Below are positions 4,342 to 36,203 of a DNA stretch of 38,516 nucleotides, one piece after another (the stretch's first letter is position 1; every line of letters begins with the position of its first letter). This DNA is from a virus. A program made the translations under genes and the position numbers. The DNA is taken from positions 1 to 38,516 of the IMG/VR virus record IMGVR_UViG_3300047470_000133; one strand, 5' to 3'. The notes under the pieces are model-generated. The model was not told the origin of the DNA, made no database searches, and worked only from the letters and a program-made list of their open reading frames with translations.

Positions 4342-4392
4342 ACGCTAAGGCACCGGAGGGGCCCGCACAACCCACATACTGAAAAGAGTAGG
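4342..4392 (-). promoter_or_regulatory. Promoter with abutting dyad operator (gene at 4301)
   Basis: On the minus strand the dyad CATACT-GAAAAG-AGTAGG (plus sense, 4375-4392) is followed by a -35 box TTGTGC (4365-4370), 17 bases, and a -10 box TAGCGT (4342-4347). The layout matches the five cassettes between 28.6 and 30.8 kb, though the downstream leader is more diverged. The outer arms pair imperfectly in this copy. Confidence 0.65.
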
Positions 4393-4417
4393 TACCCGGC
4401 CCGCCCCCGGAACGCAG

Positions 4418-4460
4418 AAAACCCCCCTTGACCTGCGCAGATGCACAAGCCAAGAGGGGT
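4418..4460 (-). terminator. Rho-independent terminator
   Basis: On the minus strand ACCCCTCTTG pairs with CAAGGGGGGT, with one G-T pair, and is followed by TTTTC. It lies just after the stop of the dNMP kinase and before the next promoter, so it ends the late/lysis transcript or the kinase transcript. Confidence 0.8.
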
Positions 4461-4469
4461 GAAAGATTT

Positions 4470-5018
4470 CTAGCGAGAGGTCAGCGCATCGGCACGCAGC
4501 GCTAGGTCTGCGAGGGTTCCGACGTTGTAGATCAGGGAATCAACCGGGTAGTTGTCGAGCGCCGTTTCGCTGTCATGCGCTGAGGCACCGTCGGGAAGGG
4601 GTGCAGTGTCAGGCCGGACGATGCGCACGATCCGGAAACCGCGCACCCTCAGGGCCTCGGCCTCATTGGGGTACCGGACATCCGAGACGACGACCGGCGA
4701 CCAAATGCCAGCGATGACGTCCAGCGCGGCAGTCACCCAAAACCCGGCGTCCATCCCCCGCACGGTTTGCCCAGTGTGCTGCAAGAGACGCCGCACTTCC
4801 GGGTAGTTGTCCTTTGCGTAGTCCCAACCCACGTCAGCGATCAGCGCTTGCAGCCGGACCGTAACCCCGTAGCCCGTGGGCACGTACGGGTTCATGTCCA
4901 GTAGTGCTGCCTTGAGCGGATCGGCGAACGCGACTCGCGTATAGCCCTGTGCGACTAGCCGGGCCGCAACGGTGTCTTTGCCGCTACGTGCCCGGCCAAT
5001 CAGTGCAATGTCCGCCAT
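4470..5018 (-). CDS. Deoxynucleoside monophosphate kinase
   Basis: The 182-residue protein opens with IALIGRARSGKDTVAARL, a P-loop (G8 to T16) of the phage dNMP kinase type. It continues with a FADPLKAAL lid-like segment, an LLQHTGQTVRG segment and VVVSDVRYPNEAEAL. This order is typical of T4 gp1-like kinases, which phosphorylate dNMPs to supply nucleotides for replication. Its ATG follows CAGGGAGAGACC. It sits after the lysis genes, outside the main nucleotide cluster, and is preceded by copy 2 of the 19-bp motif. It ends at a terminator and is probably its own transcription unit. Confidence 0.87.
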   Translation of the reverse strand: MADIALIGRARSGKDTVAARLVAQGYTRVAFADPLKAALLDMNPYVPTGYGVTVRLQALIADVGWDYAKDNYPEVRRLLQHTGQTVRGMDAGFWVTAALDVIAGIWSPVVVSDVRYPNEAEALRVRGFRIVRIVRPDTAPLPDGASAHDSETALDNYPVDSLIYNVGTLADLALRADALTSR

Positions 5019-5060
5019 GGTCTCTCCCTGCGTAGGTGGGGCAGCTACTACACGGGGAGA

Positions 5061-5086
5061 GCAAGGGTTTCCTAGGCGCCTAGGAA
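5061..5086 (-). promoter_or_regulatory. 19-bp motif copy 2 joined to an 18-bp palindrome
   Basis: GGAAACCCTTGCTCTCC (minus sense) lies about 40 bases before the dNMP kinase ATG. It overlaps a perfect palindrome, TTCCTAGGCGCCTAGGAA (5069-5086), which also contains the stop codon of the preceding membrane protein. The palindrome could fold into a terminator-like stem for the upstream gene. The motif probably serves the kinase. Confidence 0.5.
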
Positions 5087-5260
5087 GAGCCGGACCACCT
5101 TCACGACGTCGTCAACGGGGAATCCCGGGAAGTAGCGGGACAGCAGCGGAAGCGCCACCAGGACACCCGCCGCAATCTTCCTGCGGTTGCGCCAGACATA
5201 CGCCCCGGCGTCTAGTGCCATCTGCTTTAGCGGACCGTTCTCGGCGCTGTGGTCGCCCAT
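5072..5260 (-). CDS. Small membrane protein, holin-like
   Basis: The 62-residue protein has one hydrophobic segment (IAAGVLVALPLLSRYF, about residues 29-44) after a basic WRNRRK stretch, so the N-terminus probably stays inside. It starts at an ATG after AAGGAACAAC. Its place two genes after the endolysin suggests it helps form or regulate the membrane pore at lysis. The alternative is an unrelated small membrane protein, since only one membrane segment is visible. Confidence 0.65.
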   Translation of the reverse strand: MGDHSAENGPLKQMALDAGAYVWRNRRKIAAGVLVALPLLSRYFPGFPVDDVVKVVRLFLGA

Positions 5261-5355
5261 GTTGTTCCTTACGTAGAGTAAAAATTTGGGTTTCGGCCGG
5301 CATCGGGTGAACTATGCGAAATAGGACACGGCGGACACCGGCCACTTACAGAGCG

Positions 5356-6452: not shown

Positions 6453-6496
6453 GCCCCGCCGGGCACCTACTCATTTCAGTAGGTCACCCGACGGGG
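6453..6496 (-). repeat. Dispersed dyad, copy 2, within a large hairpin
   Basis: The core CCTACT-CATTTC-AGTAGG (6466-6483) is nested in a longer stem in which GCCCCG.CCGG pairs with CCGG-type sequence on the far side (6453-6458 with 6491-6496). It lies between the tail-spike stop and the endolysin start. No promoter boxes follow it, and no T run, so it is either a roadblock-type operator or an RNA element. Confidence 0.65.
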
Positions 6497-14898: not shown

Positions 14899-14922
14899 GC
14901 ACCTACTGAAATGAGTAGGTGT
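14899..14922 (-). repeat. Dispersed dyad, copy 3
   Basis: The core CCTACT-GAAATG-AGTAGG (14902-14919) has 8 perfect pairs plus one G-T pair. It lies between the tail terminator stop and the tail-tube start. No promoter is visible beside it. Confidence 0.65.
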
Positions 14923-24342: not shown

Positions 24343-24398
24343 ATTGCCCCAGTGCTCGACCATGGGAGAGAGCATGGGAGCGACTGAGGCAAGTTAAC

Positions 24399-24454: not shown

Positions 24455-24464
24455 TACCTATATA

Positions 24465-24483
24465 GGATCGCAAGGGTTTCCCG
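24465..24483 (-). promoter_or_regulatory. 19-bp AAACCCTTGC motif, copy 3
   Basis: CGGGAAACCCTTGCGATCC (minus sense) lies 123 bases before the tRNA-like element and just downstream of the 148-bp region. It is identical to copy 4 and differs from copy 5 by one base. A TATATAGG follows it directly, but no ideally spaced -35/-10 pair is present. Confidence 0.5.
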
Positions 24484-24513
24484 CCGGTACAGCGCAAGGG
24501 GCGCGACGGCCCG

Positions 24514-24661
24514 ATGTATTTGTGTACCTGGTGCATGCGATCCCGGTATCTCTTAGAGATGTCTATAGAGATATGTGATTCGGGTACACCAAATACACTC
24601 CTACACAATGCCCTGGTCAGAGCCTTGCTCGCTGTTCTTTGGTCTTGAGGCAGCTACACGC
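24514..24661 (-). repeat. 148-bp duplicated regulatory region, copy B
   Basis: This is the partner of 2036-2183 and has the same length. Outer arms are TGTATTTGTGTAC (24515-24527) and GTACACCAAATACA (24584-24597). The centre has its own palindromes, ATCTCTTAGAGAT and TCTATAGA, not found in copy A. It lies upstream of the tRNA, packaging and structural genes. Confidence 0.7.
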
Positions 24662-24681
24662 CCCCGGGCCGCTGCAACACA

Positions 24682-24735
24682 AAGGGCCCCGGGATATCCA
24701 CAGGCGTTACCATCCTGTGATATATCGGAGCCCTT
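24682..24735 (-). terminator. Long hairpin ending the integrase operon
   Basis: The left arm (24682-24704) and right arm (24714-24735) both read AAGGGC-x-CCG-x-ATAT-x-CACAGG in inverse, giving about 20 pairs with small bulges. On the minus strand it ends GGGCCCTTTGTGTT, a weak T-rich tail. It lies 27 bases after the stop of the zinc-finger gene that is coupled to the integrase. A separate 14-bp palindrome, GTGACCTAGGTCAC (24752-24765), overlaps that stop. Confidence 0.7.
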
Positions 24736-24761
24736 AGCGTTACCGCCTAGCGTGACCTAGG

Positions 24762-25091
24762 TCACTCGTTCAGGTACTTCACCGTGCGCACTGCCTGTTT
24801 CAACCCGTCCAGCCCGCCGAGCACTTCCACAGCGTCCGCGCAGCGATCACAGATGCCGTGCCCCTCGATCGGGCCCGAGCAGAGTGCACACCGGTCCTTC
24901 CGCATGCCTGCCCGGTACGCGCGCTGAGCCTCGGCCTTGTCCTCGGCGGGAATGTTCTTGCGCCGGGCCTTTGCCGCTGCTGCCTTGCACGCCTTGCAGT
25001 GGTAGCCGTAGCCGTCCGGGGTGTGCGGGTCCAGCGGGAACGCGTCCATCGGCTTATCGGTCTTGCAGTCCCAGCACGTTCGGTTGCTCAC
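24762..25091 (-). CDS. Endonuclease VII-like zinc-finger protein coupled to integrase
   Basis: The 109-residue protein starts at a GTG overlapping the integrase stop (GTGA). Residues 5-35 (TCWDCKTDKPMDAFP...GYHCKACKAAA) are the zinc-binding opening typical of phage endonuclease VII-like proteins. The C-terminal RCALCSGPIEGHGICDRCADAVEVLGGLDGLKQAVRTVKYL resembles the second half of that family. The central DH-type catalytic histidines are missing, so cleavage is unlikely. It is basic in the middle and probably binds DNA. Coupling to the integrase suggests a linked function, but that is inference. Confidence 0.7.
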   Translation of the reverse strand: MSNRTCWDCKTDKPMDAFPLDPHTPDGYGYHCKACKAAAAKARRKNIPAEDKAEAQRAYRAGMRKDRCALCSGPIEGHGICDRCADAVEVLGGLDGLKQAVRTVKYLNE

Positions 25092-26509: not shown

Positions 26510-26525
26510 GTACCCAAGGCTACAG

Positions 26526-26541
26526 GCGTTTGAGCAAACGC
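26526..26541 (-). promoter_or_regulatory. Perfect 16-bp dyad upstream of integrase
   Basis: GCGTTTG-AG-CAAACGC is a perfect inverse repeat with a 2-base centre, 17 bases before the integrase ATG. Serine integrase att sites are imperfect dyads about a 2-base crossover, so it could belong to attP. It could equally be an operator. TTCAGTACATA (26551-26560) beside it resembles half of the dispersed dyad. Confidence 0.4.
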
Positions 26542-26563
26542 ACACACCCTTCAGTACATAACC

Positions 26564-26821
26564 TCAGCGGTTGTAGTACGCGGCGTCAAACGGGTTTGGT
26601 TCCGGCTTGAACGCCTGCCAGTCCTGCGGCGCGGGCACCAGGCCCTTACCCCATGCAACGCGGCACTTGTACAGCCACGCCTCGGCCCCCTCGCGGGATC
26701 CCCACTCAAGGGGTAGGAAGTTGCCGTTCCCGTCCGGCAGCGTGCAGTACCCGTACCAGTGGAGATCCAGAATTCCCCACATGCGCCGATCAGGTGTCGT
26801 CGTCACTACGTATCGCCTCAT
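26564..26821 (-). CDS. Hypothetical 85-residue protein
   Basis: The protein has many aromatic residues (MWGILDLHWYGYCTLPDGNGNFLPLEWG) and a C-terminal PAPQDWQAFKPEPNPFD stretch. It has no membrane segment and resembles no family I know. The ATG at 26819-26821 has no clear ribosome binding site; a GTG at 26806 after GAGGCGATACGTA is possible. It lies between the secreted protein's hairpin and the integrase and could be transcribed with the integrase. Confidence 0.65.
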   Translation of the reverse strand: MRRYVVTTTPDRRMWGILDLHWYGYCTLPDGNGNFLPLEWGSREGAEAWLYKCRVAWGKGLVPAPQDWQAFKPEPNPFDAAYYNR

Positions 26822-26868
26822 ACGGCCATGGTAGAGATCAGCTACAGGCCGTGGCTACCACTACACAG

Positions 26869-26911
26869 AACAGCCCCGCAGCGACCCAACCAGGGCCATT
26901 GCGGGGCTGTT
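26869..26911 (-). terminator. 12-bp hairpin after the secreted protein gene
   Basis: AACAGCCCCGCA and TGCGGGGCTGTT pair perfectly over 12 bases. It begins four bases after the secreted-protein stop. There is no long T run, so it may work as a terminator on either strand or only partly. Confidence 0.7.
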
Positions 26912-26914
26912 TGA

Positions 26915-27646
26915 TCAGACGGTCGCCGGGGCTACTGCGGTGGCGTCCTCAATCGTTTCGGTAACCGTCTCGGCGGCGTCCTCGGGTGCGGTGACTTCCG
27001 CTGTTGCGGTGCTCTTTTCGTCGGTCACGGGGTCGGTGGCCGTGACGGTAATGGTGGTGGGGGTTTCCTCGGTCGCCTCGGTGGGATCCTCAACGACGAT
27101 GCGCACCCAAACGGTGTCATCAATGGCGGGCGCACGCTGGAATCCGATACCCAGGAGTCCTATGCCCGTGGTCTCCAACCTGGCCTTGATTACTAGATCT
27201 CCGTGCTTGTCAATGTGCACGTCAATGTTGGTACCGGGCGCCTTGCTCTTCTCAGCGTCCGACACGATGGGCAGTGCCCAATCAGGGATCTTGTCTAGGC
27301 CGGGGACGACTAGCTCAAGCCCCTCGCGCAACTTGGATTTCTTGGGCGACTCCTTGGCCGTAGGCGGCGTCTTGGACGGTTTGGCGGACGGGGTGCCTGA
27401 GGGGGTCTCAGACGGTCTCTCAGACGTTGTGGGCGCCGGTGCGGGGGAACCGGGGCGGTGAGTCGGGGTTGGGCTCTCTGCGGGGCTCTCAGCGCGTTGT
27501 GTGGCTACCGAGGCCGGTTCAGGGGTGGCGGAGACCACGGCATCCGGGGTGCGGGGTGCGTGGTCCGGGGATGAGAACGCAACGGCGCTCATGAGCGCGA
27601 ACGCTCCGGCCGTGACCACAGCGGGCACGGCTATACGTCTGAACAT
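26915..27646 (-). CDS. Secreted or membrane-anchored Pro/Thr-rich protein
   Basis: The 243-residue protein starts at ATG 27644-27646. It has a basic N-terminus (FRRIAVPAVV) and one hydrophobic segment up to about residue 25 that could be a signal peptide or an anchor. Residues about 30-105 are a linker dominated by P, T, S and A with basic ends (PPTAKESPKKSK). A folded domain follows (VVPGLDKIPDWALPIVSDAEKSK, then HIDKHGDLVIKARLETTGIGLLG and beta strands). The end is again T/A/E-rich. It has no lipobox. Actinophages carry similar secreted proteins as lysogeny genes that change the host surface. That role is inference. Confidence 0.7.
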   Translation of the reverse strand: MFRRIAVPAVVTAGAFALMSAVAFSSPDHAPRTPDAVVSATPEPASVATQRAESPAESPTPTHRPGSPAPAPTTSERPSETPSGTPSAKPSKTPPTAKESPKKSKLREGLELVVPGLDKIPDWALPIVSDAEKSKAPGTNIDVHIDKHGDLVIKARLETTGIGLLGIGFQRAPAIDDTVWVRIVVEDPTEATEETPTTITVTATDPVTDEKSTATAEVTAPEDAAETVTETIEDATAVAPATV

Positions 27647-27712
27647 TGGTGGGGGACCCAACTAGAGCGGAATGGCAGATTCCGGAATCTTTGCACGACG
27701 TTCACATGGTGC

Positions 27713-28132
27713 CTACAGCGGGTGGGGTCCCCGTCGGCGCGGCTCTACGTGACTGAGACCCGTGAGCGGAGCAATCGGCCCTGCGCCCCAAGGGTTCAGC
27801 GGGAACAGCCCCTCAGCGGTCCACAGCATCACGGCGGCGTACCGGCCAGTCTCGGCGGACCGACACCACTCCGAGACTCCCAACAGGCGCTGAGACAGCA
27901 CTCCCCTGACGCTGAGGCGGAATCCCCGGGGCTGCCGGGTGCTGTTACGGATGATCTCTGCAACGGCCCCTGCGTGTGCCTTGATGAGGGTTGGCACGTC
28001 GGCCCACTTGTCTATGTAGTCGACCGCTGACAGCCCATCCAAGAGCGGGCAGGAACGATATTCGGGGCGCCCGTCCATGGTGGGAACGGGCACCGTGACG
28101 GTGATCTCTACTGCGTACGGTGCGGTTGGCAT
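27713..28132 (-). CDS. Hypothetical 139-residue protein
   Basis: I prefer the ATG at 28130-28132 because the codons before it (to a TTG at 28204) lack the GC-rich third positions of the rest. Neither start has a strong ribosome binding site. The protein begins PTAPYAVEITVTVPVP, has a helical centre (DYIDKWADVPTLIKAHAGAVAEIIRN) and ends in a basic, Pro/Gly-rich tail (HVEPRRRGPHPL). No family is recognised. It lies upstream of the secreted protein and may share its transcript. One copy of the 27-bp ATAGATGTA repeat lies about 150 bases upstream. Confidence 0.6.
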   Translation of the reverse strand: MPTAPYAVEITVTVPVPTMDGRPEYRSCPLLDGLSAVDYIDKWADVPTLIKAHAGAVAEIIRNSTRQPRGFRLSVRGVLSQRLLGVSEWCRSAETGRYAAVMLWTAEGLFPLNPWGAGPIAPLTGLSHVEPRRRGPHPL

Positions 28133-28282
28133 GACGAAAGTCTCGCAACCGGAAGCGCACGTTCCATCAACCGTGGGGATTGTGTGGAGAGCTTTAACTC
28201 TCAACCGTTGGGCCTACAACGATAGGGCCCCTCATCCCCCAGGGTGACCCACACCACACCAATACGGACATTGGCCTCGTAA

Positions 28283-28309
28283 CCAAAGATAGATGTAACG
28301 CCCATGCAT
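28283..28309. repeat. ATAGATGTA repeat, copy 1
   Basis: CCAAAGATAGATGTAACG followed by CCCATGCAT recurs at 28722-28748 and, with two changes, at 28760-28786. This copy stands alone before the 139-residue gene, in the 239-base intergenic space 28133-28371. Its minus strand could read M-H-G-R-Y-I-Y-L-W, as could the others, but no credible gene follows. Confidence 0.7.
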
Positions 28310-28321
28310 CTTCCCTGAGAC

Positions 28322-28351
28322 ACAAAGATGCCCCCAGCTTTCGCCAGGGGC
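28322..28351 (-). terminator. Hairpin terminator after the 82-residue gene
   Basis: On the minus strand GCCCCTGG-CGAAAG-CTGGGGGC forms an 8-bp stem with two G-T pairs and is followed by ATCTTTGTG. It ends the transcript of the gene at 28372-28620. Confidence 0.65.
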
Positions 28352-28371
28352 TAGGTACGGGGCCGAACGGC

Positions 28372-28620
28372 TCAGGCGGCGTCTGCGGCCCTTGCGCACG
28401 TCTTGCACAGCTTCCGTCCACCGGTGATGCGAGCAGCCGCTACAGCCTCGGCCAGGGTCTCGAAGGACGCCCCGGTAGCCAGGCGGGACCGAGTCAGCGA
28501 GCCGCACACGTTCTGGGCCCAGTTGCTGACCACGGCGCCCGACTCATTGCCCCCGCCCGTGGTGCGCGCTTCCATGCCCGCGATGTGGTTCGTGGTCCGG
28601 TTGTACTTGATGGTGAACAT
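28372..28620 (-). CDS. Hypothetical 82-residue protein
   Basis: The protein opens FTIKYNRTTNHIAGMEART, has a SLTRSRLATGASFETLAEAVAAA helix and closes with LCKTCARA. The CKTC pair and a single earlier cysteine (NVCGSL) suggest a possible metal site. It starts at ATG after CAGGGGAGACACCAG. It has its own promoter-operator (28660-28710) and terminator, so it is a single-gene unit. No function is known. Confidence 0.65.
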   Translation of the reverse strand: MFTIKYNRTTNHIAGMEARTTGGGNESGAVVSNWAQNVCGSLTRSRLATGASFETLAEAVAAARITGGRKLCKTCARAADAA

Positions 28621-28659
28621 CTGGTGTCTCCCCTGGCTCGCTGCGTCCTTACGAGTGGA

Positions 28660-28710
28660 ACTCTACACACGGATCCGGGGCGCGCACAACCACCTACTGA
28701 AAAGAGTATG
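28660..28710 (-). promoter_or_regulatory. Promoter with abutting dyad operator (gene at 28620)
   Basis: -35 TTGTGC (28684-28689), 18 bases, -10 TAGAGT (28660-28665). The dyad core CCTACT-GAAAAG-AGTATG (28693-28710) ends three bases before the -35 box and pairs over 8 of 9 positions. The leader TCCACTCGTAAG follows as in the neighbouring cassettes. Confidence 0.8.
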
Positions 28711-28721
28711 TGGATCCGGGA

Positions 28722-28786
28722 CCAAAGATAGATGTAACGCCCATGCATTGAGCCCGAGACCAAAGATAGATGTATCGCCCACGCAT
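28722..28786. repeat. ATAGATGTA repeat, copies 2 and 3 in tandem
   Basis: Two copies (28722-28748 and 28760-28786) lie head to tail upstream of the dyad at 28693. Copy 3 differs from copy 2 by an A/T and a G/A change. They are 11 bases apart. Diverged copies also occur at 29174-29199 and 29815-29840 in the opposite orientation, each upstream of a promoter-operator cassette. Confidence 0.75.
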
Positions 28787-28810
28787 GGAACTAGTTCACA
28801 AGCCAGGGCA

Positions 28811-28837
28811 AAGGGAAAGGGCCCCCGGAGGGGCCCC
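28811..28837 (-). terminator. Rho-independent-type terminator
   Basis: On the minus strand GGGCCCC and GGGGCCC pair over 7 bases and are followed by TTTCCCTTT. It lies just after the stop of the 68-residue gene at 28849. Confidence 0.75.
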
Positions 28838-28848
28838 GTCCTTCCTGC

Positions 28849-29055
28849 TTACATCCCGGCCCAGTAGCCGGTACCCATCGCGCCCCATCCCCAGTTACGT
28901 CCGGTCTTGGTGTTCGCCGAGACGAGCATGTCCTCGTTGCTGCGGACCTTGTGGGTGCGGATCTCAGCGCCCGTGGCGTCGAACTCGCGAACCAGGGCCC
29001 ATCCCCCGGCACCCTGGGTCTTGACGGTGACTCGGGCGGTGGCGGTGGCGTTCAT
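28849..29055 (-). CDS. Hypothetical 68-residue protein
   Basis: The protein is a compact beta-rich sequence (TATARVTVKTQGAGGWALVREFDATGAEIRTHKVRSN) ending in an aromatic NWGWGAMGTGYWAGM tail. It has no cysteine or membrane segment. ATG follows CAGGGGAGAACGAA. It has its own promoter, operator and terminator. No family is recognised. Confidence 0.65.
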   Translation of the reverse strand: MNATATARVTVKTQGAGGWALVREFDATGAEIRTHKVRSNEDMLVSANTKTGRNWGWGAMGTGYWAGM

Positions 29056-29094
29056 TTCGTTCTCCCCTGCGTCGTTGTCGTGCTTACGAGTGGA

Positions 29095-29148
29095 ACTCTA
29101 CACACGGATCCAGGGTGCGCGCAACCACATACTGAAAAGAGTATGTGG
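29095..29148 (-). promoter_or_regulatory. Promoter with abutting dyad operator (gene at 29055)
   Basis: -35 TTGCGC (29119-29124), 18 bases, -10 TAGAGT (29095-29100). The dyad CCACATACT-GAAAAG-AGTATGTGG (29125-29148) is a perfect 9-bp inverse repeat and touches the -35 box directly. This is the cleanest cassette in the window. Confidence 0.85.
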
Positions 29149-29173
29149 GCTGGCTCACATCGCAGCGCGTGAC

Positions 29174-29199
29174 GTGCAGGGAACGTACATCTATCTTTA
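29174..29199. repeat. ATAGATGTA repeat, diverged copy 4
   Basis: GTACATCTATCTTTA on the plus strand matches the core of the repeat in opposite orientation to copies 1-3. It lies about 25 bases beyond the dyad of the 29055 gene. Confidence 0.55.
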
Positions 29200-29300
29200 C
29201 CCCTACCCGGAAGCTCTGTACGGCCGACTGAGAGCCTGCCAGCACTCCCCCGGGGTTGCCCGGCCAAGGCTCCCGCGTGAGGCTCTCAGACGGGCACCTA

Positions 29301-29328
29301 GGGGCCCCAGGGTCTCCCCCAGGGCCCC
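29301..29328 (-). terminator. GC-rich terminator hairpin
   Basis: GGGGCCC and GGGCCCC pair at the outer end, with inner GGG-CCC. The middle CCCCAGGGTCTCCCCC is shared exactly with the terminator at 30008-30031. It lies directly after the stop of the 122-residue gene. Confidence 0.65.
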
Positions 29329-29335
29329 CGACCGC

Positions 29336-29704
29336 CTAGCTCGCGGCGTAGAAGTACCGGCCGTAGGACGATCCGCCGATGTGAATGTTGATGTACTTCC
29401 GGCCCCCCTCGCCGGTCATCACGCTGACCGAAACCCCGTGCTTCTCAGCGTTCGCGATGGTGGCGCGCATCTGCTGAGCACTGCTGATCACGACCCGGTG
29501 ATCCGCCTTGCCGCGAGACTCGAACGTGTCCGTGTCCTGAACGATGTCCATGATGCCCTCTCCGTGAAAGGCGGTCCAGCACTTCGCCGCCGCCAGCGCC
29601 ATTGCCTCGGTCAGGTAGCCGGGGGTGCGGAACGCCTCGCGACCGTCCTGGAAAACGATGCCGTAGTGGTTGCCGTTCTTCGCGGTGATCGCGATGTTCG
29701 TCAT
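29336..29704 (-). CDS. Hypothetical 122-residue protein
   Basis: The sequence (NIAITAKNGNHYGIVFQDGREAFRTPGYLTEAMALAAAKCW, later HRVVISSAQQMRATIANAEKHGVSVSVM) suggests a small alpha/beta fold with a DUF-like phage pattern. The end is INIHIGGSSYGRYFYAAS. ATG follows GGGGAGCGGAC. It has its own promoter-operator and a terminator, so it is a separate unit. Function unknown. Confidence 0.7.
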   Translation of the reverse strand: MTNIAITAKNGNHYGIVFQDGREAFRTPGYLTEAMALAAAKCWTAFHGEGIMDIVQDTDTFESRGKADHRVVISSAQQMRATIANAEKHGVSVSVMTGEGGRKYINIHIGGSSYGRYFYAAS

Positions 29705-29741
29705 GTCCGCTCCCCTGCTTGCCGTTGTGCTTACGAGTGGA

Positions 29742-29792
29742 ACTCTATGCGCATCCGCACGCCCCGCGCAACCACCTACTGAAAAGAGTATG
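29742..29792 (-). promoter_or_regulatory. Promoter with abutting dyad operator (gene at 29704)
   Basis: -35 TTGCGC (29766-29771), 18 bases, -10 TAGAGT (29742-29747), then TCCACTCGTAAGCAC. The dyad core CCTACT-GAAAAG-AGTATG lies at 29775-29792, within a 9-position arm with one mismatch. Confidence 0.82.
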
Positions 29793-29814
29793 TGGACGAG
29801 ACTTCGGCGCGTAT

Positions 29815-29840
29815 ATGCATGGCCGTTACACCTTTATTTA
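29815..29840. repeat. ATAGATGTA repeat, diverged copy 5
   Basis: ATGCATGGCCGTTACACC followed by TTTATTTA on the plus strand is a diverged copy of the repeat, in the same orientation as copy 4. About 20 of 26 positions match. Confidence 0.5.
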
Positions 29841-29849
29841 CGCAAAGTA

Positions 29850-29895
29850 GCGGCCGGCATAACCCAGCGTCATAACACCAGGTCATACCGGCCGC
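29850..29895. repeat. Long inverted repeat
   Basis: GCGGCCGGCATAACC (29850-29864) and GGTCATACCGGCCGC (29881-29895) pair at 13 of 15 positions around a 16-base centre. There is no T run. It might be a weak terminator or a binding site. Confidence 0.55.
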
Positions 29896-30007
29896 GAGTC
29901 GGCACAGTGAGGGATGCAGGGAGGCGAAGAAACGCAGTTAACGGGAGAGCGAAGCCCCTGCGCGCCGCCTATCTGAGGCGAACCACCCTGCACCCTTCAC
30001 CGCGCCG

Positions 30008-30031
30008 GGCCCCAGGGTCTCCCCCGGGGCC
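30008..30031 (-). terminator. GC-rich terminator hairpin
   Basis: GGCCCC and GGGGCC form the outer stem. The inner sequence CCCCAGGGTCTCCCCC is the same as in the terminator at 29301-29328. It lies 12 bases after the stop of the 62-residue gene. Confidence 0.65.
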
Positions 30032-30042
30032 GTTGCGGTGCC

Positions 30043-30231
30043 CTACAGACCCTTTAGCGCGGCGTCGAGCCGGTCCCGCAGCTTCCGGGCGGTCTCTAGC
30101 GTCATGGACGCCAGATCACCATATTCGCCGCTGGTGTGAGTCGGGGCAGCCAGCCATACGAGGAATTTCTCATCTTCGAGCGGGGCAGGCTCGACGACAA
30201 CTGCCACGTCTTCCCAGAACTGCGCGATCAT
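30043..30231 (-). CDS. Hypothetical 62-residue protein
   Basis: ATG 30229-30231 follows AAGGGAAACGAA; the longer frame to 30294 would cross the promoter. The protein starts IAQFWEDVAVVVEPAPLEDEKFLVWLAAP and ends in a helix, ARKLRDRLDAALKGL. It has no recognised motif. It is a single-gene unit with its own promoter-operator and terminator. Confidence 0.65.
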   Translation of the reverse strand: MIAQFWEDVAVVVEPAPLEDEKFLVWLAAPTHTSGEYGDLASMTLETARKLRDRLDAALKGL

Positions 30232-30265
30232 TTCGTTTCCCTTCGCTGCGGTGCTTACGAGTGAG

Positions 30266-30324
30266 ACTCTATGGGCTGCGCCACCCACGCGCAAGCTACC
30301 TACTCATTTCAGTAGGTAGCTTGC
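30266..30324 (-). promoter_or_regulatory. Promoter overlapped by a perfect 14-bp dyad (gene at 30231)
   Basis: -35 TTGCGC (30289-30294), 17 bases, -10 TAGAGT (30266-30271). The dyad GCAAGCTACCTACT-CATTTC-AGTAGGTAGCTTGC (30291-30324) is perfect over 14 bp, and its outer arm covers part of the -35 box. A protein on the dyad would block the promoter. Confidence 0.85.
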
Positions 30325-30338
30325 GGCTCATGTCCGGC

Positions 30339-30677
30339 TCAGATTCCCCGGCGGGGCCGGTAGGCAATGTCAATGCTCCAACCCCGACCGAGCCACTCAA
30401 CCGTGAAGTTGGCGCCAACGTGCTTGTGTACCAGAGACTCAGCGACATCATCCGGCACCCAACGACCCTTAGGCACGTCCACGTACTCAACGATGCGAGT
30501 CGGGAACACGATGCCAGCCATGCGAACCGGCATGTACTTGCCCTTGGGGAGATCCTGGGGCTTCAGATCAGGGGTGATGGTGTGGCGCAGGCTCACGCGC
30601 TCCGTACCGTCCCCGTTGTCCGCGAGGGAGACCCGCAGCGTACCCATGATGCCGTCAATTTCCTCGTAAAACTGCAT
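30339..30677 (-). CDS. Hypothetical 112-residue protein
   Basis: ATG follows GAGGGGCAGCGAA. The beta-rich protein (GTLRVSLADNGDGTERVSLRHTITPD, GKYMPVRMAGIVFPTRIVEYVDVPKGRWVPDDVAE) ends in a basic RPRRGI. I recognise no family. It has its own promoter-operator and begins the series of small early genes after the dCMP deaminase. Confidence 0.7.
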   Translation of the reverse strand: MQFYEEIDGIMGTLRVSLADNGDGTERVSLRHTITPDLKPQDLPKGKYMPVRMAGIVFPTRIVEYVDVPKGRWVPDDVAESLVHKHVGANFTVEWLGRGWSIDIAYRPRRGI

Positions 30678-30718
30678 TTCGCTGCCCCTCGCTCCGCCGT
30701 GTCGTGCTTACGAGTCAG

Positions 30719-30774
30719 ACACTATGCGAGCGCCGGGCGCGGAAGCAACCCACCTACTCATTTCAGTATGTGGG
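30719..30774 (-). promoter_or_regulatory. Promoter with abutting dyad operator (gene at 30677)
   Basis: -35 TTGCTT (30743-30748), 18 bases, -10 TAGTGT (30719-30724), then CTGACTCGTAAGCAC. The dyad CCCACCTACT-CATTTC-AGTATGTGGG (30749-30774) pairs at 9 of 10 positions and touches the -35 box. Confidence 0.8.
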
Positions 30775-31161
30775 CTAGGCCACAACTACCCGCTTGATGC
30801 CTGCCGCAGTGATCAGCGTCGAGCACGCCGGGCAAGGCTTGCGGGTTACGTACAGCGTCGCCCCCGGCAGCTCCGCAGGGTCCGCATGCTCAATCGCGTT
30901 GCGTTCAGCGTGAGTTGCCGCGCAGTTGGCGTAGTCGCTGTCTCGCGCGCACTCGGCTACGTCCAGCCTTCCCCGTGGACAGTTACCGGCGGTAGCGCAA
31001 CCGGGGATCCCGGGTAGCAGGCCGTTGTAACCGACGCTGCGTACCCGGTTCCGGTCGTTCACGAGCACTGCCCCAACCTGTGCCCGTGTGCAGTCGGCAC
31101 GAGTGGCAACCACAGCGGCTAGCGCGAGTCCCCACTCATCCCAGCTAGGGCGATCGCTCAC
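30775..31161 (-). CDS. dCMP deaminase
   Basis: The 128-residue protein has the zinc-dependent deaminase signature: HAERNAI with H84 and catalytic E86, and PCPAC with C110 and C113. Earlier cysteines (C55, C61 and nearby) may hold a second, structural zinc as in phage enzymes of this family. It converts dCMP to dUMP, the substrate of ThyX, encoded just upstream in the same operon. It begins at a GTG overlapping the thioredoxin stop (GTGA). Confidence 0.93.
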   Translation of the reverse strand: MSDRPSWDEWGLALAAVVATRADCTRAQVGAVLVNDRNRVRSVGYNGLLPGIPGCATAGNCPRGRLDVAECARDSDYANCAATHAERNAIEHADPAELPGATLYVTRKPCPACSTLITAAGIKRVVVA

Positions 31162-31394
31162 GCACCCACCAGGGCCCGTATCTGCGCCTCAGTGGCCCCG
31201 CCCCGATGCTCGCGCACCACCTGCCCGTACTCGTCGTACACGCGGATTGTGGGAACCGCCCGGATGTCGAGCGCGCGGCTATCGCCAGTCTCTACGTCGA
31301 CGTACTCGCCAGCCTCCCCGGTCACGCGCTGAAAGTGCGGGTAAGTCGTCTTGCAGGGGGCACACCAGGACGCCCCAAAGAACACCGGCTTCAC
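31158..31394 (-). CDS. Thioredoxin/glutaredoxin-like protein
   Basis: The 78-residue protein has the redox site WCAPC (residues 10-14), the helix after it, and a cis-proline loop AVPTIRVYDEYG. It is shorter than host thioredoxin, as usual for phage forms. It probably supplies electrons for a reductase, or helps a polymerase, but no ribonucleotide reductase is in this window. It begins at a GTG overlapping the stop of the tiny gene before it. Confidence 0.88.
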   Translation of the reverse strand: MKPVFFGASWCAPCKTTYPHFQRVTGEAGEYVDVETGDSRALDIRAVPTIRVYDEYGQVVREHRGGATEAQIRALVGA

Positions 31395-31474
31395 TCGTCA
31401 TCCTCGCTGTCGTTGATGCATCGTCCGCCCCCGCAGTACAGGCACGCGTCGTCGTCCTCAGTCCAGCCGATCAA
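31391..31474 (-). CDS. Tiny 27-residue zinc-knuckle peptide
   Basis: This frame starts at a TTG overlapping the lipoprotein stop as TTGA and ends overlapping the thioredoxin start as GTGA. AGGGAGGG lies 4 bases before it. It encodes a single CLYCGGGRC knuckle between acidic ends (WTEDDD and DSEDDE). Chaining by overlap on both sides is good evidence that it is translated. Function unknown; it may be a metal-binding accessory to the redox protein next to it. Confidence 0.65.
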   Translation of the reverse strand: MIGWTEDDDACLYCGGGRCINDSEDDE

Positions 31475-31668
31475 CTGCCCTCCCTCTCCGCGTACTTGAC
31501 GCAGGTCGTAACGATGGACGTTCCGGAAACCAACTTGCCGTTAACGATGGTGGTGTGCGGGATAACCTGCGTCGTGTAGTCCAGACACTCCGGGCCTGAC
31601 TCGCATGCGCTGAGGCCAAGAACGACGGCCCCGGTTAGGACCATGGCGCCGAGGATTCGGCCGGTCAC
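31471..31668 (-). CDS. Small lipoprotein
   Basis: The 65-residue protein has a short hydrophobic signal ([15 protein letters not shown]) ending in the lipobox LSAC at about residue 19-22, so Cys22 is probably lipidated and the rest faces outward. A second cysteine pair follows (C28, C56). It begins at a GTG overlapping the ThyX stop. Phage lipoproteins of this size can block a second infection, though nothing shows that here. Confidence 0.8.
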
Positions 31669-32366
31669 TTGTCATCACTTCCATACGGCGTAGCCGGAAC
31701 ATCCTGGAAAGAGTTGGGGGCAAGGATCCTCAGGTAGTCGAGCGTCAGCCCCGCATACTCGCGAATCTCGGCGTCAGCGGCGACGTGCCAGCGCTTGCCG
31801 AGGACGTCTCGCCATGCCCGCAGGTTGCCGGTAACCACCATGTCGACCGGGGCAGCATTCGGCAGCACGCTTCGCGCAGCTTCGCGAGCCTGCTTGCGCT
31901 TGAGGCCACGGGCCGTCAGATCCTCAACGAGTGATTCATAGATGCGCACGCTGCCCGCGTAGGCGTTGACGATGGCAGTTTCCGCCGGGGTGCCTTCAGC
32001 GGCAGGCGGTATGACCGGGGCCGTGTCGGCGTATGACACGTAGCGCTGGCTCACTACCGAGAAACTCAGGTGTCGGTGCCGCGAGAGTTCAGCGAGCAGC
32101 GCCCGGGACACCCCCTGCACTAGGAAGCTCACGGACGCATGCTCAAGCACGCTGTAGTGACCCTGGGCGAGGATGTTGGCCATGTACCCGGCGTTCTCCG
32201 CCGTGGCCGGATTGGGGCGAGCGAAACTCTTGTAACAGAGCCGACCGGCCGACTCCCCCAGCGCATCCGAGTCGCGAACCTCCTGATCTCCGATCGCGTC
32301 GTACCCGTAAGCGTCGATCATCACGTGTTCACGCATGATGGTGTGTGCCAGAACATCAACCCGCAT
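31665..32366 (-). CDS. thyX: Flavin-dependent thymidylate synthase ThyX
   Basis: The 233-residue protein starts at the ATG at 32364-32366 after AGGAGAGAGCCC, the AGTAGGAG being part of the dyad. The ThyX signature RHR-x7-S lies at residues 96-106 ([14 protein letters not shown]). [13 protein letters not shown] is the usual segment before it. It makes dTMP from dUMP with folate and FAD. Its substrate comes from the dCMP deaminase downstream. The operon continues with the lipoprotein, tiny peptide and thioredoxin by overlapping stop-start pairs. Confidence 0.94.
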
Positions 32367-32375
32367 GGGCTCTCT

Positions 32376-32393
32376 CCTACTGAAATGAGTACG
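32376..32393 (-). repeat. Dispersed dyad, copy 12
   Basis: CCTACT-GAAATG-AGTACG lies between the 64-residue gene and thyX, and its left arm supplies part of the thyX ribosome binding site. No promoter is possible in the few bases between it and the start. Confidence 0.65.
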
Positions 32394-32397
32394 TGGG

Positions 32398-32592
32398 CTA
32401 GACGTAGGTTTCGCCAGCCAGGAAGCTAGCGAGTTGCAGAACATCGAACGGCTCGGCGTTCCACTCGTTCTCGTCGTCGTCGAGCAGCTTCCGAGCAACC
32501 TTCCATGCATCCACGCGGTCGGCCATGTCCTCGGCCTTTCGCTGGGCAACGCCGGTCAGCGTCGGTGGCTTGAATGCGGGCTCAGCGGCCAC
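32398..32592 (-). CDS. Hypothetical 64-residue protein
   Basis: It starts at a GTG that overlaps the end of the previous gene by 11 bases, with GGGGGG-TAACT before it. The protein is helical and acidic ([26 protein letters not shown]), ending [16 protein letters not shown]. It has no known family. Position in the thyX operon is the only clue to its role. Confidence 0.65.
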
Positions 32593-32752
32593 AGTTACCC
32601 CCCAGGGTGCGGAGCAGCGGAACGGCCTCGGTGAACGAGTGGGTCACGCTGCTGATGACTTCACCGGCGGCATTCGCGGTGACGAACTCAATGTTGTTGC
32701 CGACGCGCCGAGTGGTGACGATGTGGCCGGTGCGAAGCTGGAACGTGTTCAC
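32582..32752 (-). CDS. Hypothetical 56-residue protein
   Basis: GTG 32750-32752 follows GGGGAGACACC; an upstream ATG frame runs into copy 4 of the 19-bp motif. The sequence (NTFQLRTGHIVTTRRVGNNIEFVTANAAGEVISSVTHSF) is beta-rich and resembles small phage proteins of the same kind as that at 28849. No domain is recognised. It is the first gene of the thyX operon downstream of the HNH gene. Confidence 0.65.
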   Translation of the reverse strand: MNTFQLRTGHIVTTRRVGNNIEFVTANAAGEVISSVTHSFTEAVPLLRTLGGNCGR

Positions 32753-32791
32753 GGTGTCTCCCCGGGGGTTCGTGCTGCTCTTGGTGACAGT

Positions 32792-32810
32792 GGATCGCAA
32801 GGGTTTCCCG
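32792..32810 (-). promoter_or_regulatory. 19-bp motif, copy 4
   Basis: CGGGAAACCCTTGCGATCC (minus sense) directly abuts the stop codon of the HNH gene (32811) and lies about 40 bases before the 56-residue gene. It is identical to copy 3 and one base different from copy 5 on the other side of the HNH gene. Confidence 0.55.
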
Positions 32811-33092
32811 CTAGAAGGTTGCGGCCCACTCAGCGAGGCTCTTAGCGCCCTTGCTCAGGTTGCAGGGAGCGCAGGCAGGCAACAGGTTGTGCGCTGCGTC
32901 CGCTCCCCCACGGCTAATGGGCACCACGTGGTCTAGATGCTCGGCCGGGTCTCCGCAGTAGGCGCAGGATCCGCCGTAGGCAGCGAAGATGTCTGCGCGC
33001 CGGTAGGTCACCCGGGCCCGTCTGCGTCCCCTGCACCGCATGCAGTAGCCGCGTACTGCCTTGACTCGTCCGCAGGCACCGCATGTCTTCAT
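32811..33092 (-). CDS. HNH endonuclease, bracketed by the 19-bp motif
   Basis: The ATG at 33090-33092 gives 93 residues; an earlier start would translate the 19-bp motif and is rejected. The N-terminal half is a zinc ribbon (CGACGRVKAVRGYCMRC) and the second an HNH core with CAYCG, HLDHVVPISRGG and NLLPACAPCNLSK, holding all catalytic histidines and the asparagine. It has no strong ribosome binding site. It interrupts the line between the sigma-like gene and the thyX operon and has the motif on both sides, which suggests it could be a mobile, homing-type gene. Confidence 0.87.
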   Translation of the reverse strand: MKTCGACGRVKAVRGYCMRCRGRRRARVTYRRADIFAAYGGSCAYCGDPAEHLDHVVPISRGGADAAHNLLPACAPCNLSKGAKSLAEWAATF

Positions 33093-33101
33093 ACCGGGGC
33101 T

Positions 33102-33120
33102 GGATAGCAAGGGTTTCCCG
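33102..33120 (-). promoter_or_regulatory. 19-bp motif, copy 5
   Basis: CGGGAAACCCTTGCTATCC (minus sense) lies 9 bases before the HNH start. It is the upstream partner of copy 4. Confidence 0.55.
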
Positions 33121-33127
33121 GCACGCG

Positions 33128-33158
33128 AAAGGGCCCCCAGGATCATCCCTAGGGGCCC
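33128..33158 (-). terminator. Terminator after the sigma-like gene
   Basis: GGGCCCC and GGGGGCCC pair around an AGGGATGATCCT centre that also pairs partly, and the minus strand continues TTTCGCG. It ends the sigma-like transcript 20 bases after its stop. Confidence 0.7.
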
Positions 33159-33177
33159 AACTCACCGCAGACGCAGG

Positions 33178-34002
33178 CTAGATCGCGTACGCCTCGCTGT
33201 AGAGCGCCGCAAAGCGCGTCTTGCCCTTGCTCCGCACCACCTTCACGCGGTCGCGCTGGATGCCGTAGTCAGCCGACAGTTCATCATCAAAATCAATGCC
33301 GTACTCGGCAACCGGCTCGATACCGGTCAGCGCCATAAGCACCGTGCGCTGCTGCTCGCCCATCTTGTTGAGGGTGGCGTGAACCTGCGCCGTGGTCTGC
33401 TTGCGCGCGGCCTGGTTGTAGTCCGCAGGGGTCAGCATGTCTTCCGGGACTCCGATGGTGCTGGCGATGTTCGCGCCGACCGTGGTGGGCTCGCTGTCGT
33501 CGCTGCCACCGGCCGGTGCGTCCAAGTAGTCAAGGCCCTGGTACGAGAGCCGGGCGGCGTAGGCCAGATCAGCGGACAGGGTGCGGAACTTCCCGCCCAT
33601 GACGTCGGCATCCTGCACGATCTGCTCAGCGATGTAGGCATCACCCTTGGCGATGGACACGGCAGCCTCAAAACGCTGGGCGGTTGCCAGTGCCACACCC
33701 GGGCGAGTCTCGACCTTACGGGCGCTGGAAATGACCCCCGTCACCGTGGTGTCAACGAACGTGAAGAACTGGGCCACGCTGTCCCCCTTGAAGTTGGGGA
33801 GAGAGGTCCAGATCGCCGTGCGCCCTTCCTGCGCCAGATCCTCGGCAAGCGTGTGGTTGACGCGTCCGCTGGACGTTGCAGCACGCCGGGCAAGGTAGAC
33901 AACGCGCTCATCAAACTCGGTCAGGATGTGGGCGAGAGCCGAGGCCGACTCGATGTCGCTGCCCATGGCCGTACGAATCTGCTCGATGGTGACGTTGATC
34001 AT
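33178..34002 (-). CDS. Sigma-factor-like protein
   Basis: The ATG at 34000-34002 follows GGAGGGGAACCCC. Residues about 30-80 (FDERVVYLARRAA...AEDLAQEGRTAIWTSLPNFKGDSVAQFFTFVDTTVTGVI) resemble sigma-70 region 2.1-2.2, which binds the core polymerase. The C-terminal third (MGEQQRTVLMALTGIE, then DDELSADYGIQRDRVKVVRSKGKTRFAALY) has the shape of region 4, a helix-turn-helix that reads -35 DNA. A clear region 2.4 is not visible. It may direct transcription of later genes, perhaps from the 148-bp regions or 19-bp motifs. It could instead be an anti-sigma or other polymerase-binding protein. Confidence 0.6.
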   Translation of the reverse strand: MINVTIEQIRTAMGSDIESASALAHILTEFDERVVYLARRAATSSGRVNHTLAEDLAQEGRTAIWTSLPNFKGDSVAQFFTFVDTTVTGVISSARKVETRPGVALATAQRFEAAVSIAKGDAYIAEQIVQDADVMGGKFRTLSADLAYAARLSYQGLDYLDAPAGGSDDSEPTTVGANIASTIGVPEDMLTPADYNQAARKQTTAQVHATLNKMGEQQRTVLMALTGIEPVAEYGIDFDDELSADYGIQRDRVKVVRSKGKTRFAALYSEAYAI

Positions 34003-34041
34003 TTTGGGGTTCCCCTCCGGTTTGCTGCGGTGATGTGCTGG

Positions 34042-34070
34042 AACGTATGCGGGGCCACTGGCATATGCAA
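34042..34070 (-). promoter_or_regulatory. Promoter for the sigma-like gene
   Basis: -35 TTGCAT (34065-34070), 17 bases, -10 TACGTT (34042-34047), followed by CCAGCACATCACC. It is like the cassette promoters, but no dyad touches it; the nearest (34271-34288) is 200 bases upstream. Confidence 0.55.
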
Positions 34071-34270
34071 CTGGCGTTTCGCTGGGAGAGACCCAGGCCA
34101 CGGGGACAAGGTTGTGACGATTTCGAAGGCGTAACGGGGTCTCATCCCTAGGATTGATAGGTAAGACCATTCGGTAACGGCGGGGTAACCAGGCATTTGC
34201 AAGGCGCAACGCTGGTCACCCCGTCAGGTACTAATCGGCATAGGACTTGCCACGTGTGACCCACCCGACA

Positions 34271-34288
34271 CCTACTCTTTTCAGTAGG
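34271..34288 (-). repeat. Dispersed dyad, copy 13
   Basis: CCTACT-CTTTTC-AGTAGG pairs over 8 bases and lies 12 bases after the DNA polymerase stop (34300). It is upstream of the sigma-like gene's promoter but separated from it. Between 34071 and 34270 I see no gene. Confidence 0.65.
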
Positions 34289-34299
34289 TGAACGCAGAG

Positions 34300-36150
34300 T
34301 TAGACGTCAGCTCCGTAGAGTGAGCCCCACGAGCGCTTACCAATCTCCGCCTCGGCCTCAATGGGCACGCCGAAAAGATCGAACGTCATGCATCGCTCAA
34401 TCTCGCGTGCGTAGTCCTCCGCCTCAGCGGCCGGGACACTGGCAAGCACCTCGTCATGGATCGGCAGGCGCATCGTGTCGAGCAATCCAGCCTCTTCGAT
34501 GTTGAGCAGCGATTGCCCCAGCACGTCACGCGCGGCACTCTGCACGGCGTAGTTGATGACGGCATACGTGCGCGAGCGATCCAGGGGCAGACGCCGACCC
34601 GTGACCGACACGTGAACCATGCCGGTCTCGTACGCCTCGCGCTGCCAACGGTTGGACATGCGCTTGATTTCCGGGTAGGCCCGGTGGAACGCCCCTAGCG
34701 CCGCCTCAAGCTCCGCCCGGGGTGCACCGGTCTGCCGCTCAAGCGCTGCCAGTCCCCCGCCGTAGACGGTTCCGAATGCCATCTTCTTAGCGTTCTCACG
34801 CTGGTTTTTCGTGAAGTTGGGCCCGTAGACCATGGACGCCGTGAACGCGTGTAGGTCGGCGCCCTGTGCGATCGCCTTTTTCATGTTCTTCACGTCGCCA
34901 AGGGCAGCGAGCACGCGCAACTCGACGGCCTTAAAGTCGGTCGACACCATGACGTGACCGGGTTCGGCCAAGAGTGCCCGGCGGATCATCTGATCACGGC
35001 TCGGGAGCGTCTGAAGCGCAGGCCGCGTGATGGACATGCGTCCCGTCCGCGCACGCATTGAGTTGATGAAGCAGTGCACCCGGCCGTCAGCGTCGACCGT
35101 CTCAAGGAACGTGTCAGCGTACGAGGAACGCCACTTACCGGCGCGCTTGCTCTTGAGGATCGCCTCGGCAAGCGGGTTAGGCGTGCGGGATCCCAGGGGC
35201 TCGCCCGATGCAAAGTCCAGATCGGCGAGCCGGTGAAGCACTGCCTTATCGACCTTGACGTTACCGCTGGCCGTGGTCTCGCTGAGGGTCTCCCCCATAC
35301 CGGCCAGTGCCTCAGCGATCTGCCGGGGCGCGTTCACGTTGGCCACCCCGTACCGAGCGGCTACGCCGGTGAACTCAAGCTCATCATGCATGAGTTGGGA
35401 CTGAAGCTGCCGCGTGTAGTCGACATCGAGCACCAGGCCGCGACGCTGCATGATCGCGCAGATACGGGCTATCTCGTGCTCGTACTGCACCAGCTTGTTA
35501 GACACGCTGAGCATGTCCAGCTCTCGGCGGAGTGCCGGTTCCAGCCGGGCAGTCAGGATGACGTCAAGACCCGCGTACAGGTTGTAGGTGGGGTGGTCGA
35601 GCGGGATCCCGGCCCACCCGGTTTCCTTGGTCAGTTTGAGGGACCGGAACACCGCTGTCAGGTCCCCTTGGGTGTCCGGCGCGGACGGGTCCACGTACCA
35701 GGCACACAGAGGCTTGAGGGCGGTCCCCCGTCCACCTTCCTGCGGCTGCCGGGGATCGATCAGGCCAGCGAGTAGGCGCGTGTCCGTAGTGCGCGGGGCA
35801 AGGCTCTCGATGCTCTCCCGCGTGTGCCGGTCGAGCACGCACCAATCGAACGGGGCGTTGTGAATCAGGAACCGGTTCACGTAGTCCAGCGCGCGTTCCC
35901 CGTAGTGGACGAACTCGCCGCCCCGCTCCCAGTGGATTACCCACCCGGTCCGTGCGTCGCCGAACTGCACCGTGCGCAGACGGTAGGTGTCGCTGTAGAT
36001 GTCGAGACCAGTTGTCTCCGTGTCCAGCGCGATCGGGCCCCGGTTGTTCGCGTCGACAATCCAGCGCTTGAACTCGTTGAGATCCTCGCGAGTCTCCGGA
36101 ACCTTCACGGTGACGTCTTGTCCGGCAACCTGGTACGGGTAGATGCGCAC
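34300..36150 (-). CDS. Family A DNA polymerase with 3'-5' exonuclease
   Basis: I place the start at the GTG at 36148-36150, five bases after AGAGGGG; an ATG at 36165 would bury that site. The 616-residue protein has exonuclease motifs ALDTETTGL (about 41-49), LIHNAPFDW and YAGLDVILTARL, so proofreading looks intact. Polymerase motif A is STDFKAVELRVLA, B is KKMAFGTVYGGG and C is LPIHDEV with the metal-binding Asp. Motif A has FKAV in place of the usual YSQI. It copies the phage genome, next to the primase/helicase. Confidence 0.95.
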   Translation of the reverse strand: MRIYPYQVAGQDVTVKVPETREDLNEFKRWIVDANNRGPIALDTETTGLDIYSDTYRLRTVQFGDARTGWVIHWERGGEFVHYGERALDYVNRFLIHNAPFDWCVLDRHTRESIESLAPRTTDTRLLAGLIDPRQPQEGGRGTALKPLCAWYVDPSAPDTQGDLTAVFRSLKLTKETGWAGIPLDHPTYNLYAGLDVILTARLEPALRRELDMLSVSNKLVQYEHEIARICAIMQRRGLVLDVDYTRQLQSQLMHDELEFTGVAARYGVANVNAPRQIAEALAGMGETLSETTASGNVKVDKAVLHRLADLDFASGEPLGSRTPNPLAEAILKSKRAGKWRSSYADTFLETVDADGRVHCFINSMRARTGRMSITRPALQTLPSRDQMIRRALLAEPGHVMVSTDFKAVELRVLAALGDVKNMKKAIAQGADLHAFTASMVYGPNFTKNQRENAKKMAFGTVYGGGLAALERQTGAPRAELEAALGAFHRAYPEIKRMSNRWQREAYETGMVHVSVTGRRLPLDRSRTYAVINYAVQSAARDVLGQSLLNIEEAGLLDTMRLPIHDEVLASVPAAEAEDYAREIERCMTFDLFGVPIEAEAEIGKRSWGSLYGADV

Positions 36151-36169
36151 GTGCGCCCCTCTCATGCGA

Positions 36170-36203
36170 ACGGGTCACCTACTCATTTCAGTAGGCGACC
36201 CGT
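36170..36203 (-). repeat. Dispersed dyad, copy 14, with 14-bp arms
   Basis: ACGGGTCACCTACT-CATTTC-AGTAGGCGACCCGT pairs at 13 of 14 positions. It lies between the primase/helicase stop and the polymerase start, with no promoter. The outer arm differs from that at 30291 but is equally complementary. Confidence 0.7.

Follow-up and report, generated by a model that had tools for sequence, protein, structure and literature searches.

The window analysed here is a viral contig from IMG/VR (IMGVR_UViG_3300047470_000133; 38,516 bases) and contains fourteen copies of an 18-bp dyad in which the arms CCTACT and AGTAGG flank a six-base centre. These dyads are in all probability the dispersed operators of the phage's own phiC31-type repressor, the predicted product of gene c. 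The evidence comprises the dyads themselves, the family and clade of the repressor, the geometry of the promoters, the gene junctions shared with phiC31 and the covarying stems around several sites. The putative operators are as follows.

4375–4392, plus strand: GAAAAG centre; promoter-operator of repressor gene c; junction matches phiC31 dyad 19200
6466–6483, minus strand: GAAATG centre; gap between minor tail gene and endolysin gene, within a long predicted hairpin; junction matches phiC31 17009
14902–14919, plus strand: GAAATG centre; upstream of the major tail gene
17179–17196, minus strand: GGAATG centre; after the major capsid gene, at the tip of a covarying hairpin
19757–19774, minus strand: GAAATG centre; overlaps the end of the portal gene
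23822–23839, minus strand: GAAATG centre; gap between tRNA-Pro and an HNH-like gene; junction matches Rowa 42089
28693–28710, plus strand: GAAAAG centre; early promoter unit
29128–29145, plus strand: GAAAAG centre; early promoter unit
29775–29792, plus strand: GAAAAG centre; early promoter unit
30299–30316, minus strand: GAAATG centre; early promoter unit; flanks 9/10 paired
30753–30770, minus strand: GAAATG centre; early promoter unit after the dCMP deaminase gene; junction matches phiC31 34431
32376–32393, plus strand: GAAATG centre; upstream of thyX; junction matches phiC31 32543
34271–34288, minus strand: GAAAAG centre; gap between the DNA polymerase gene and a sigma-factor-like gene; junction matches phiC31 29547/29741
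36178–36195, minus strand: GAAATG centre; gap between the primase and DNA polymerase genes, at the tip of a covarying hairpin

A scan of the window allowing up to two arm mismatches returned 17 matches against 0.57 expected, a number reached in none of 100 shuffles. The three surplus matches (13163, 17150 and 17969) have unrelated centres and are chance occurrences; the other fourteen are exactly the copies located by an earlier reading of the sequence alone (hereafter the sequence-only reading). The six-base arms are symmetric in all fourteen dyads; they match perfectly in five copies, with one mismatch in eight and with two in one (29128). The full 18-mer word is CCTACTGAAATGAGTAGG. On the G-rich strand the centre is GAAATG in eight copies, GAAAAG in five and GGAATG in one, the same limited set that had been proposed, and it occurs in both orientations (eight one way, six the other). 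With a curated gene set, 13 of the 14 dyads are non-coding for at least 17 of their 18 bases, in line with the earlier count of thirteen copies between genes or at gene starts; among random 18-mers, 10% reach 16 or more non-coding bases (p about 2e-12). The sole genic copy, 19757, lies within the final codons of the portal gene. Chance repeats are ruled out by the shuffles and by the non-coding placement. Repeats of the host were also considered; the pattern was found in 19 scattered GTDB stretches, once in each, which is below the roughly 60 estimated by chance.

Six of the fourteen dyads (4375, 28693, 29128, 29775, 30299 and 30753) touch a promoter and eight do not, a division that the sequence-only reading had drawn correctly. 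At these six sites the operator is part of a rigid unit, in which it is followed after 3–4 bp by a TTGNNN −35 box, a spacer of 17 or 18 bases and TAGNGT. In five of the six units TAGNGT is followed by ACTCGTAAG, and each unit leads on to a ribosome-binding site and a start codon; every copy of ACTCGTAAG in the window lies inside such a unit. The remaining eight sites show no such geometry. The same geometry is kept in relatives that use other operator words. The promoters and the repressor gene are located as follows.

3036–4301, minus strand: repressor gene c, 421 amino acids (aa), PF25746 match
4339–4369, minus strand: promoter of c, TTGTGC-N17-TAGCGT, downstream of operator 4375 and leading to ATG 4301
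28644–30750, minus strand: five early promoters, TTGNNN-N17/18-TAGNGT followed by ACTCGTAAG, each 3–4 bp downstream of an operator

A 70-bp operator-promoter unit is present in three copies between 28644 and 29795; these are 79–93% identical, precede small early genes and represent a recent duplication.

The sequence-only reading had looked for the repressor gene outside the window; it was found inside, at 3036–4301 on the minus strand. In its longer reading, from TTG 4448, the open reading frame (3036–4448, minus strand) matches PF25746, the Pfam family "Streptomyces phage repressor protein c", with an E-value of 2.3e-57 and a score of 195 against a cut-off of 27 bits, and this is the sole Pfam family on the protein. 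The start of c is likely ATG 4301, which follows GGGGAG and gives a 421-aa product. Another ATG lies at residue 87 behind a ribosome-binding site of its own; initiation there would give an isoform of 335 aa. An internal repressor start with a ribosome-binding site is present in seven phages, namely the window, phiC31 (384 aa, ∼42 kDa) and five other relatives. According to the introduction of PMC4557955, phiC31 makes three repressor isoforms, and the conserved internal start in c fits such nested isoforms. The position of c, after the deoxynucleoside monophosphate (dNMP) kinase gene and before the homologues of gp1 and the recombination directionality factor (RDF) in the same direction, follows the order in phiC31. 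A single-protein search of viral contigs returned no match.

At 28372–28620 an N-terminal repressor module forms a gene by itself: over 75 aa, its 82-aa product shares 67% identity with the N-terminal part of the phage Shawty repressor (18065–18289). The 122-aa protein encoded at 29336–29704 has weak similarity to the product of the gene adjoining the Rowa repressor and to phiC31 gp32, described as "transcribed in lysogens".

The window array has a counterpart in phiC31, a workhorse of Streptomyces genetics. The sequence CCTACTCACGTGAGTAGG (CCTACT-CACGTG-AGTAGG), at up to five mismatches, occurs 16 times in phiC31 (AJ006589.3), 16 times in phiBT1 and 15 times each in Lilbooboo and Samora. We take the phiC31 dyads to be the targets of the phiC31 repressor known as conserved inverted repeats (CIRs). 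Of these, the one ahead of phiC31 c falls within B/B', an inverted repeat that the depositors of X12865 had annotated. The window array shares with the CIRs of phiC31 and phiBT1 the arms, the 6-bp centre, a copy number of 14–17, the location at gene junctions and a copy upstream of c, along with a homologous repressor that has the conserved internal start. It differs in that the CIR centre, CACGTG, is palindromic, whereas that of the window is GAAAWG with unequal half-sites in every copy, and in that the window has no dyad copy inside gene c. Eight dyad-holding junctions (36178, 34271, 32376, 30753, 23822, 17179, 6466 and 4375) are common to the window, phiC31 and TG1, although the dyad sequence of TG1 is different. 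Since arms, spacing and many junctions are the same in phiC31 and phiBT1, the window element is identified by sequence comparison as the operator, or conserved inverted repeat, of the phiC31 repressor system and not as an L5-type stoperator. The element, for which the sequence-only reading knew of no description, thus has a known counterpart in the phiC31 dyads.

The other relatives each have a dyad of their own, in 10–24 copies. The operator word is GGCACTCACGTGAGTGCC in TG1, CCACCTCACGTGAGGTGG in Nesbitt and AbbeyMikolon, CCTACTCTTAAGAGTAGG in Heather, Sebastisaurus and RemusLoopin, and CACCTAGTAACGTTACTAGGTG in Shady. The exact phiC31 operator CCTACTCACGTGAGTAGG is not the word of the window; nor does it define the family, being absent also from TG1, Heather and others. 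Dispersed candidate dyads were also seen in phiSASD1 (GGGGACGTCCTCCCC), which has no annotated repressor, and in Dubu (GGAGAGGTTCTCTCC).

The two half-sites of the window group are CCTACTGAA and CCTACTCWT (symmetric versions CCTACTGAATTCAGTAGG and CCTACTCATATGAGTAGG), and they are unequal in every copy because the centre is GAAAWG rather than the palindromic CACGTG. When only the arms were specified and any centre was allowed, a search of the window and nine related-contig loci gave 69 matches, among which GAAATG accounts for 35 and GAAAAG for 22; the partly symmetric centre GAAATC is present at only two real sites. The same operator, CMTACTGAAAWGAGTAKG, occurs in IMG/VR in 54 stretches and about 40 contigs. 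A PF25746 repressor is encoded on three long IMG/VR contigs and one partial contig with the window operator; one of these phages, 3300028589_000029, whose DNA is only 71% identical where it can be aligned, keeps the operator.

Asymmetry of the centre follows the repressor clade. In a tree of 23 repressors, the window group, Rowa and the IMG/VR phages 2862178590_000002 and 3300047320_000062 form one clade (100/100), and the phages with asymmetric operators are grouped at 80/84. The Rowa operator is CACCTNCG-AAAATC-CGNAGGTG, with AAAATC in 17 of 17 real sites. Rowa sites resemble those of the window in their asymmetric A-tract centre, the use of both orientations, a repressor of the same clade and the same promoter geometry, but they have other arms and a longer dyad (22 bp). 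GAAA is kept in 10 of 10 sites of 2862178590_000002. In 3300047320_000062 the operator is CAGCTACTGAATTCAGTAGCTG; the derived half of the window operator recurs there as half-site CTACTGAA and in its symmetric form, CTACTGAATTCAGTAG, and the repressor belongs to the same clade, but the centre, GAATTC, is symmetric and the outer arms are mostly imperfect. Within the asymmetric clade the sense-direction centre reads as the pyrimidine strand in 9 of 11 promoter-type sites and as the purine strand in 30 of 40 others. The split has a within-phage permutation p of 0.0015, or 0.0019 with tandem copies collapsed, and was found post hoc; held-out loci supplied one further promoter-type site, which fits the trend but is homologous to 4375. 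We treat the orientation split as a lead, not a claim.

Many of the non-promoter sites, in the window and in relatives, cap inverted repeats that are longer than the dyad itself. Pairing between flank positions 3–10 was compared with within-phage permutation and was matched in 26 of 2000 permutations for the window, 1 of 2000 for phiC31 and 0 of 2000 for TG1, and most other phages also exceed the permutations. At the primase-polymerase junction 97.6% of the pair cells are standard over 15 distinct sequences, and 11 of 14 pairs have changed on both sides; at the junction that follows the capsid gene, 91.5% are standard over 11 distinct sequences. None of 500 shuffles reached the observed stem pairing at these two junctions. 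Folding is much stronger than in shuffles at window sites 36178, 30299, 17179 and 6466, with z between −4.2 and −8.3 (−8.3 at 30299 and −5.9 at 6466). Flanks differ between the sites of one phage, and the repressor therefore cannot read them as a word; selection on the hairpin is the simplest reading of the flank pairing, and several non-promoter sites probably double as hairpins or terminators. Loop orientation and hairpins went together in the window group but not in Rowa, and we claim no link between them. What emerges from the comparison as new is the operator word with GAAAWG, its unequal half-sites, and a hairpin context conserved across much of the family.

Several observations weigh against the proposed operator system or its hairpins. 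The window repressor is only 24–31% identical to phiC31 repressors, and its AlphaFold model (pTM 0.40) resembles no solved structure in the PDB, with no DNA-binding fold identified. Rowa, Nesbitt, AbbeyMikolon and Shady show little or no flank-pairing signal, a clearly extended stem is present at only about four or five window sites, and none of the window hairpins is followed by a U-run.

We infer the following course for repressor binding, roadblock and termination. In the lysogen, the c protein would bind the dispersed dyads. At the six promoter sites, bound repressor would cover the −35 region of the early promoters and of the c promoter and block initiation, the latter amounting to autoregulation. 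At the other eight sites, located at junctions between co-transcribed genes, it may act as a roadblock to RNA polymerase leaking into the lytic operons. When repressor is absent, the transcript of several non-promoter sites would probably fold into a hairpin by which transcription is terminated or trimmed. Tentatively, we put forward the idea that the non-promoter copies are dual elements, in DNA an asymmetric repressor site whose orientation tells promoter-operators apart from blocks to elongation, and in RNA a terminator hairpin tip.

We know of no settled reason for the many phiC31 repressor sites that lie away from promoters. Instead of roadblocks, the non-promoter copies might serve for repressor parking, DNA looping or condensing of the prophage, and their spacing of 0.4–8.4 kb over the whole genome would suit such a role; looping alone, however, would need neither the precise placement at gene junctions nor the hairpin stems seen at many of them, and we consider this account somewhat doubtful.

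The core of the sequence-only reading, a repressor with promoter operators and dispersed sites, is well supported, and its choice of mycobacteriophage L5 as the model gives way to the phiC31 system, given the PF25746 repressor, the 18-bp dyad and the shared arms. The introduction of PMC4557955 gives 18–30 dispersed repressor sites for phiC31 and L5. In an L5-type system a monomeric repressor would halt elongation at short asymmetric sites oriented with transcription; the L5 sites are 13 bp long, asymmetric and strictly oriented with transcription, and are bound by a monomer of ∼183 residues (PMC9283540). The window resembles L5 in having many dispersed sites, at promoters and, for the most part, away from them in intergenic spaces, and in its asymmetric centre; over the asymmetric clade, the orientation of the centre differs by class (9 minus and 2 plus at promoter-type sites against 10 minus and 30 plus at the others). 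Its sites, however, are 18-bp dyads with symmetric arms, their orientation is mixed (8:6) although all genes lie on one strand, and the 421-aa PF25746 repressor is not a homologue of the L5 protein, which is a two-domain monomer (helix-turn-helix plus stoperator domain) of another family. Membership in the L5 system is thus very unlikely; the window system may still work like L5 at its non-promoter sites by blocking elongation.

It is still less probable that the dyads are RNA elements only, that is, terminators or processing hairpins with no protein reading the DNA. The stable folds at several sites and the covarying stems would be expected of such elements, but the core hardly changes within a phage as its flanks do, six of the sites precede a −35 box and hence stand outside the transcript under their control, folding at 4375 and 29775 is at best slightly stronger than in shuffles, and the core sequence tracks the repressor clade. 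Replication, packaging or recombination signals, which the genome-wide presence of the dyads might suggest, are the least credible, given how rigidly the dyads are tied to promoters and to the start of c, the gene-junction positions, a sequence that tracks the repressor rather than terminase or primase, and no concentration at an origin or cos.

The window encodes a serine integrase, an RDF homologue, primase, DNA polymerase, ThyX, a sigma-factor-like protein, dNMP kinase and the repressor, with all genes on the minus strand. Its early genes are similar to those of phiC31, phiBT1, TG1 and Lilbooboo, and its head and tail genes to those of Dubu and phiSASD1. A relative, IMGVR_UViG_3300046810_000071, spans both window ends across about 1.4 kb that is missing from the window and holds one further dyad (position 9171 of the relative); the window is therefore a nearly complete genome in circularly permuted form. 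The phage is temperate and of the Streptomyces phiC31 type. Other genes are listed below.

292–1107, minus strand: RDF homologue (phiC31 gp3)
25088–26545, minus strand: serine integrase
33178–34209, minus strand: sigma-factor-like protein (phiC31 gp12 homologue; TIGR02937, E-value 1.2e-8)

The sigma-factor-like gene lies directly downstream of operator 34271 and is a candidate reader of late promoters. The IMG/VR contig 3300046518_000286 is 99.98% identical to window positions 23359–38491. A 148-nt repeat occurs in two copies, 80% identical and separated by about 22 kb (2036–2183 and 24514–24661), with related copies in relatives. Short repeats include GGATCGCAAGGGTTTCCCGC, with four copies in the window (2016, 24465, 32792 and 33102), and ACCAAAGATAGATGTAACGCCCATGCAT, with three (28282, 28721 and 28759).

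Across about ten phage groups the operator word differs, and positions, promoter geometry and hairpin context are largely kept. Comparison within the phiC31 family opens the way to direct tests of repressor specificity, of superinfection immunity and of what the non-promoter sites do, and suggests a simple rule by which immunity groups would be predictable from genome sequence. If the dual DNA and RNA role is true, one 18-bp word would set the limits of transcription in lysogeny as well as during lytic growth, and the fast-changing operator words would have been re-installed in both roles together.

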